Shown: positions 12,199 to 23,186 of the stretch, one piece after another | Layout of the letters: each line of letters begins with the position of its first letter | How positions within the stretch are numbered: position 1 is the first letter of the stretch | Assembly (NCBI GenBank): GCA_020161265.1 | Contig: JAIUOC010000001.1 | Coordinates: forward strand, 744,001-808,000 | Length of the DNA: 64,000 nucleotides | Reading direction: 5' to 3' | DNA from: Chloroflexota bacterium | GTDB lineage: Bacteria; Chloroflexota; Chloroflexia; Chloroflexales; Herpetosiphonaceae | The notes under the pieces: model-generated | The model's input: only the letters and a program-made list of their open reading frames with translations | Told to the model about the DNA's origin: nothing | The model's database searches: none | Position numbers and translations under genes: made by a program

Positions 12199-12293
12199 TA
12201 AAACCACAAACGACCCGCTGGGGGTCGCTTGTGGGAGAGAAGAGAGAGGAGAAGGTTTGACTTAATCATACCAGAGCATTCAGGGTATCGACA
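12199..12293 (-). ncRNA. candidate small RNA B (own promoter, pyrimidine tract, terminator)
   Basis: Read leftward: -35 TGTCGA (12293-12288), 17-bp spacer, -10 TATGAT (12270-12265), then a pyrimidine-only tract CCTTCTCCTCTCTCTTCTCT (from 12255), then a hairpin ending in TTTT (12234-12200). A transcript of about 60 nt is predicted. The order, spacing and the first 12 pyrimidines match the unit at 23102-23186. It lies after the 3' end of the lipoprotein gene. The promoter and terminator are read directly; the RNA itself is inferred. Confidence 0.45.
12200..12234 (-). terminator. intrinsic terminator downstream of lipoprotein gene / sRNA B
   Basis: On the minus strand CCACAAGCGACCC pairs with GGGTCGTTTGTGG (one mismatch, arms 12222-12234 and 12204-12216), followed by TTTTAGG. 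A strong GC stem and T-run. Confidence 0.8.
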
Positions 12294-12354
12294 TTAGAAT
12301 GCTATTAATCTTGTCGGTAACTTGGAAGAAATCGCTTAACCAACCCTCGCCAGC

Positions 12355-23101: not shown

Positions 23102-23186
23102 TGTCAATCTAGGAGTAATGGCCTATACTCGTTGGCATCTCCTTCTCCTCTCTTCTCTCGCTAGAGCCCCGCAACTGCGGGGTTTT
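23102..23186 (+). ncRNA. candidate small RNA A (own promoter, pyrimidine tract, terminator)
   Basis: TGTCAA (23102-23107), 16-bp spacer, TATACT (23124-23129), then a pyrimidine-only tract from 23138 to 23159 (starts TCTCCTTCTCCTCTCTTCTC), a small CTCT/AGAG stem and the terminator CCCCGC/GCGGGG with TTTT ending at 23186. The predicted transcript is about 50 nt. Same architecture and same CCTTCTCCTCTC core as the leftward unit at 12199-12293. The CU-rich single strand could pair with ribosome sites such as GGAGAAGG. The RNA is inferred, not proven. Confidence 0.45.
23167..23186 (+). terminator. terminator after rpe / sRNA A
   Basis: CCCCGC (23167-23172), loop AACT, GCGGGG (23177-23182), TTTT. 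Classic intrinsic terminator. Confidence 0.88.

Follow-up and report, generated by a model that had tools for sequence, protein, structure and literature searches.

CU-rich small RNAs with a single terminator hairpin: a predicted family in Herpetosiphon and related Chloroflexota

Introduction

In a 64,000-nucleotide stretch of Herpetosiphon DNA (the window, G000:C1:744001-808000), two short units, copies A and B, each combine a predicted promoter, a CU-rich tract and a hairpin followed by a run of T. The question they raise is whether they encode a functional RNA and, if so, what it might do. An earlier note had taken them for paralogous members of a new small RNA (sRNA) family that might block ribosome sites. 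The two units almost certainly do belong to a previously undescribed family of ~60-nucleotide bacterial RNAs, although this is inferred from sequence alone and their transcription is itself an inference. The existence of the family, its structure, its promoter geometry and its distribution are established computationally. Transcription, Shine-Dalgarno (SD) masking, CRP control, signals and targets are inferences of another order, drawn only from the DNA.

The two units and their family

The layouts described in the earlier note held for both units: TGTCAA-16-TATACT, a pyrimidine tract and a terminator in copy A, and TGTCGA-17-TATGAT, a core, a hairpin and TTTT in copy B (Table 1). The claim that the units are paralogous held only in part: A and B have the transcribed part in common, but paralogy does not extend to their promoters, whose upstream regions show no relation beyond the -10 box. 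Folded against shuffled sequences, the hairpins give z-scores of -4.3 (A) and -6.5 (B). Copy B scores 93.8 bits against a covariance model built from the main type, and copy A scores 29 bits.

The claim of a new family held. This 6.04 Mb genome has 12 members, five of the main type, one copy A and six of type C, with further copies in relatives and ~12 copies per Herpetosiphon genome. The main and C types differ in the interior of the tract, which is UCU in the former and a ACACACACA linker in the latter. With zero mismatches, the 12-mer CCTTCTCCTCTC occurs twice in the window and six times in the genome (reversed control, none), each of five congeners has 6-11 occurrences of it, and every 21-nt pyrimidine run in the genome falls within the six main-type and A units. 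The predicted genes are free-standing, each with its own predicted promoter and terminator and no open reading frame.

A search of Rfam 15 found no family that matches these RNAs, and a relaxed threshold gave chance matches only. The sole echo was a 24-nt terminator match to RsmY at 18.1 bits, well below the cut-off of 57. The literature searched held no sRNA paper on Herpetosiphon or Chloroflexus, and neither it nor Rfam yielded a trans-acting sRNA family described for the phylum Chloroflexota.

Table 1. Positions of the predicted sRNA units, the family types and other loci mentioned in the text
Feature	Position	Strand	Remarks
Copy A, -35-like hexamer TGTCAA	23102..23107	+	Read from sequence; promoter region conserved in 6 orthologues; 16-nt spacer to TATACT
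Copy A, -10 hexamer TATACT	23124..23129	+	Same spacing kept in 28 genomes of the class
Copy A, predicted sRNA	23137..23186	+	5' CU tract AUCUCCUUCUCCUCUCUUCUCUC, intrinsic terminator hairpin with U4; covariance-model match
Copy A, pyrimidine tract	23138-23159	+	22 nt
Copy A, stem CCCCGC/GCGGGG	23167-23182	+
Copy A, TTTT	23183-23186	+
Copy B, direct-repeat box TTAATAGCATTCTAATGT	12291..12308	-	Upstream of/overlapping the -35
Copy B, -35-like hexamer TGTCGA	12288..12293	-
Copy B, -10 hexamer TATGAT	12265..12270	-	17 nt from TGTCGA
Copy B, predicted sRNA, main type	12199..12259	-	UCAAACCUUCUCCUCUCUCUUCUCUCC tract, 13-bp terminator hairpin with U4
Copy B, CCTTCTCCTCTC core	12255	-	Hairpin and TTTT downstream
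CRISPR array	window:39132-40903	-	At least 24 repeats (Rfam CRISPR-DR30)
Open reading frame	window:47477-55375	-	2632 aa
Main type	5 copies in this genome, including copy B		TCAAACCTTCTCCTCTCTCTTCTCTCC, then 13-bp hairpin and TTTT
Copy A type	1 per genome		Divergent member; ATCTCCTTCTCCTCTCTTCTCTC with a different hairpin
Type C	6 copies in this genome		CAAAUCCUUCCUCCUCACACACAC...; CAAATCCTTCCTCCTCACACACAC...CTCTTCTCTCC and hairpin
Phage main-type sRNA genes	L136:24-87; L137:8125-8191		Near integrase genes
Type C/CRISPR loci	L071:8003-12648; L075:9621-12229		Own genome, C1:124-127 kb and C5:323-326 kb
Cassettes bordered by hairpin copies	L077:7550-11235 (C6:401.5-405.2 kb)		Present/absent between species
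Diverged sRNA copy and 3'-half copy	L087:8635-9666 (G005 C110)		1 kb apart

Evidence at the RNA level

Over 18 distinct bodies, 99.1% of the stem cells are paired, and double (compensatory) changes occur in nine of the 13 pairs, a result equalled by none of 500 shuffles. Sliding the stem partner lowers the pairing to 36-50%. The single-stranded CU tract is nearly invariant and the hairpin varies by compensation. Part of this invariance is by construction, because many of the 18 bodies were retrieved through an exact match to the tract. However, copies found by the covariance model, in a sister genus (G073) and elsewhere, show it independently, with small changes. The combination of a conserved, accessible seed with a structure maintained by compensation, as expected of a trans-acting base-pairing sRNA, is present, and the earlier argument that a kept tract with differing hairpins points to such an RNA held by virtue of the stem covariation.

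Homology among the Herpetosiphonaceae copies extends from about +1 to the terminator, and in four orthologue groups across six genomes the body is invariant at 63/63 positions, as against 9-56% in the downstream flank. Upstream, 21 promoters that are less than 60% alike all have a -10-like hexamer at one fixed distance from UCAAA, the conserved RNA start.

Distribution and synteny

The earlier note had proposed a covariance model as a check and had named the lack of further copies and of tract conservation as grounds for refutation. The model, built on the main type, found relatives across the Herpetosiphonaceae, and those grounds were tested and not met: 6/6 Herpetosiphon genomes and sister genera have copies, and copy-A relatives are present in two more families of the order. 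Main-type relatives were found in all nine genomes of the window's family, and main and C types in six Herpetosiphon genomes (E 1e-22 to 1e-6). All 36 contig stretches that hold the 21-mer CCTTCTCCTCTCTCTTCTCTC in a collection of 85k species are from Herpetosiphon or Herpetosiphonaceae MAGs. A 301-genome sample of the phylum and 73 other genomes of the order gave only weak hits to the model. One weak hit, in genome G198, is a copy-A relative; those beyond the order (E about 0.002-0.008) look on inspection like chance.

Within the genus Herpetosiphon, the sRNA loci are syntenic. Copy A lies downstream of rpe in all six genomes and in one sister genus, and other copies adjoin recG/EF-G, a Cys/Met-metabolism PLP enzyme, a glycerol-phosphate-oxidase-like gene and an ABC transporter, among others. 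The next gene runs in the same direction for seven of the 12 copies and is convergent for five, at varying distances and with unrelated flanking genes.

Copy A as the older member

Copy A is likely to be an old, order-wide, single-copy member of the family. The pattern TATACT-N-ATCTCCTTCTCC, searched for as TATACT-N(3-9)-TCTCCTTCTCC with ~0.004 matches expected per genome by our own estimate, is present in 28 of the 158 genomes of the class, with a single match in every one of the 28, and has no match in the reversed control. Seven of these genomes are from the window's family, 20 (out of 41) from a second family (f2) and one from a third; none of the genomes outside the order has it. The eight genomes of one genus, probably Chloroflexus, also lack a strict match. 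The A before the pattern and the TCTC after it are invariant, even though they were not part of the query. The hairpins of these relatives differ and fold at -24 to -38 kcal/mol, with double changes in 11/17 and 5/16 stem pairs in two groups.

A common small gene, which is not rpe, lies downstream of 14 of the 20 f2 copies. What supports homology between the f2 and Herpetosiphon copies is consequently the tract together with the -10 spacing and the layout, and not synteny. Many f2 copies also have GATTC instead of a T run after the hairpin, which makes termination there less clear.

Promoters and predicted control

The f2 upstream regions carry TGTRATCTAGNNCACA, a site that resembles TGTGA-N6-TCACA; its centre lies at -41.5 in 16 of 20 copies and at -42.5 and -43.5 in two more. 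Most copies match the CRP-type site at 12 of 16 positions or better (P 0.003 for the shuffled upstream region). Position -41.5 is the textbook location of a class II CRP-type activator. The f2 relatives thus fit the pattern of a CRP-dependent class II promoter, a prediction from which CRP control is only inferred. No CRP-type site was found for copy A of the window (L282), where the best match is 9/16, at -67.5.

Type C promoters have a pattern of their own, TTARK-N6-GTAARY-N10-ATACTV, which occurs 32 times in six genomes at positions that pair with type-C sRNA hits; the pairing was verified individually in this genome and in H. aurantiacus. Copy B and another copy, m6, have in common TTAAYR-N4-TCTAATNT, whose nine strict matches in six genomes each lie upstream of a main-type sRNA. 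Since both patterns were derived from sRNA promoters, all that they show is the absence of a strict match at any other gene.

Phage copies and genomic neighbours

Two temperate-phage contigs of ~50 kb from metagenomes in IMG/VR (L136 and L137) carry complete main-type genes with promoters, together with integrase, terminase small subunit, endolysin or recombination genes. In H. geysericola, sRNA copies lie near tail tape-measure genes. Phage and plasmid record collections gave no match. A viral scan with the copy-A pattern gave 52 chance-like hits, and the only one that passed a loose tract filter (L312) lacked a strong hairpin. The idea that the sRNA copies serve in general as integrase sites was rejected, because the phage copies are whole genes with promoters.

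Some further observations concern the surroundings of the copies. At one locus (L077), gene cassettes that are present or absent between species, one with an AraC regulator and an aldo-keto reductase and one with a glycosyltransferase-like gene, have borders that fall precisely within copies of the sRNA terminator hairpin, as though it served as a site of recombination. At another (L087), a diverged, GC-rich copy of the sRNA lies near transposase- and integrase-like genes, as does a copy of the 3' half. Two of the six type-C sRNAs are divergent from type III CRISPR operons (Cas10/Cmr2, Csm1), and a SAVED-domain gene sits between two type-C sRNAs. Across six genomes, ~9 of 20 Cas10 genes above the cut-off are within ~2 kb of a type-C sRNA, representing two independent loci. 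The window has a CRISPR array of its own, whose spacers matched none of the phage contigs examined at up to 7 mismatches, and a very long open reading frame (Table 1).

Proposed function

On the current reading, the units most likely encode Hfq-independent sRNAs that act in trans by masking SD sites. This is the favoured function, held with moderate confidence: it is inferred from sequence alone, there are no transcript data and the mechanism is untested. Each unit would comprise a promoter, a single-stranded CU-rich seed that starts at +1 and a strong 3' hairpin, which in Herpetosiphon would be the intrinsic terminator, giving RNAs of ~50-68 nt. The seed would pair with purine-rich SD regions (AAGGAGAU-like) and block translation initiation without Hfq. 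Copy A would be the order-wide single-copy member, with a putative CRP/FNR-type activator site at -41.5 in the sister family, and in the Herpetosiphonaceae one RNA body in many copies under differing promoters would allow several signals to feed one repressor RNA.

The seed resembles the anti-SD tail of 16S rRNA (AUCUCCUUCU vs ACCUCCUUUCU). The SD motif AGGA precedes 43% of the starts in this genome; inside genes the figure is 2%. For the tracts, the binding energies are -7.3 to -8.5 kcal/mol at initiation regions and -3.8 to -4.6 in gene interiors. Hfq was not found in this genome by a search that detected its positive controls. It is on the SD-motif frequency, the tract binding and the failure to find Hfq that SD masking is favoured, with protein titration as its chief rival.

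The type C tract beats 98% of its shuffles at initiation regions; for the main tract, 42% of the shuffles are as good. Near-perfect complementary sites for the main tract are not enriched (96, against 115 in the reversed control), and no near-perfect conserved target was found, nor a convincing one at a start codon. The earlier suggestion that the RNA blocks ribosome sites is therefore plausible and not shown, as binding is better at initiation regions and the letter order of the main tract is no better than shuffles.

Alternative explanations

The chief rival, which remains possible, is a decoy: the repeated CU tract would titrate an RNA-binding protein, such as a cold-shock, KH-domain or other pyrimidine-binding protein, as CsrB and RsmY titrate CsrA. 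In its favour are the one invariant single-stranded motif that some dozen copies in each genome carry, the lack of order-specific complementarity of the main tract to initiation regions and the fact that Hfq was not found; an invariant 5' tract is equally suited to protein binding and base pairing. Against it, a sequence-specific protein would have to tolerate the difference between the main and C tracts, and the tract resembles the anti-SD tail.

A general translation brake, in which the RNA acts on the ribosome or on factors that bind the 16S tail and not on single mRNAs, is unlikely. The similarity of the 5' end to the 16S tail and the broad SD binding without order specificity speak for it, but many differently regulated copies and the CRP-type promoter point to specific regulation.

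Copying as DNA, as a mobile repeat or terminator element without a functional RNA, is very unlikely. The copies do have a common body with unrelated flanks, partial hairpin copies border gene insertions and losses, and there are copies on phage contigs. However, the stem changes are compensatory, the -10 boxes of 21 unrelated promoters all stand at one fixed spacing and beyond the limits of the repeat, the loci are syntenic across six genomes and an order-wide single-copy type exists. Equally improbable is a cis-acting leader or attenuator, for which the co-directional genes can be cited and against which stand the convergent ones, the varied distances and flanks and a hairpin predicted to stop transcription ahead of the gene; the mixed orientation of the neighbours speaks against a leader element.

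Implications

SD masking by trans-acting sRNAs remains the preferred reading. A bolder version is that a regulatory RNA of ancient origin, present across the order and under CRP control in one family, was duplicated in the Herpetosiphonaceae as a bare transcript and came to stand behind many unrelated promoters, of which some have boxes with no other occurrence in the genome. As complete copies of this RNA are also present in temperate phages, a single translational switch may be contested between host and phage. Taken as a whole, this version is less likely than not.

If the preferred reading is true, the Chloroflexota would have a trans-acting sRNA family whose conservation spans an order and which works in a bacterium in which no Hfq was found, with a predicted CRP-type tie in one family and an expansion to ~12 copies in predatory filamentous bacteria. 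It would also provide a clear example of a single RNA body placed under many promoters, and of an sRNA common to hosts and phages.

Comparison with known systems

In the RsmY/CsrB decoys, too, a short motif recurs several times in small RNAs, but their motifs are GGA and not CU. CyaR of the enterobacteria is a CRP-activated sRNA whose anti-SD-like sequence blocks start sites. The f2 relatives of copy A recall it through their CRP-like site at -41.5, with CRP control predicted only. CyaR needs Hfq, has another structure and has no homology to the window family.

LhrC1-5 of Listeria monocytogenes is also a multicopy CU-rich sRNA family. Binding of its redundant C/U motifs close to the start site hinders translation, and Hfq is not needed for its stability or for lapB binding (PMC4132741). 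LhrC differs in having UCCC motifs in the loops and linker of a multi-hairpin RNA, and all its copies are LisRK-dependent (PMC4132741), whereas the window family has one 5' tract, one hairpin and differing promoters, without an Rfam sequence match. The alpha-r14 or "cuckoo" sRNAs of the Rhizobiales (SmelA075, NfeR1) combine an invariant anti-SD motif with freely varying stems and are multicopy (PMC3927594, PMC10746234). However, they are from unrelated bacteria and present their motif CCUCCUCCC, which is absent from the window family RNAs, in several hairpin loops, in contrast to the linear 5' tract CCUUCUCCUCUC and single hairpin described here. By analogy, the LhrC and cuckoo RNAs may be regarded as functional analogues of the window family rather than as its relatives.
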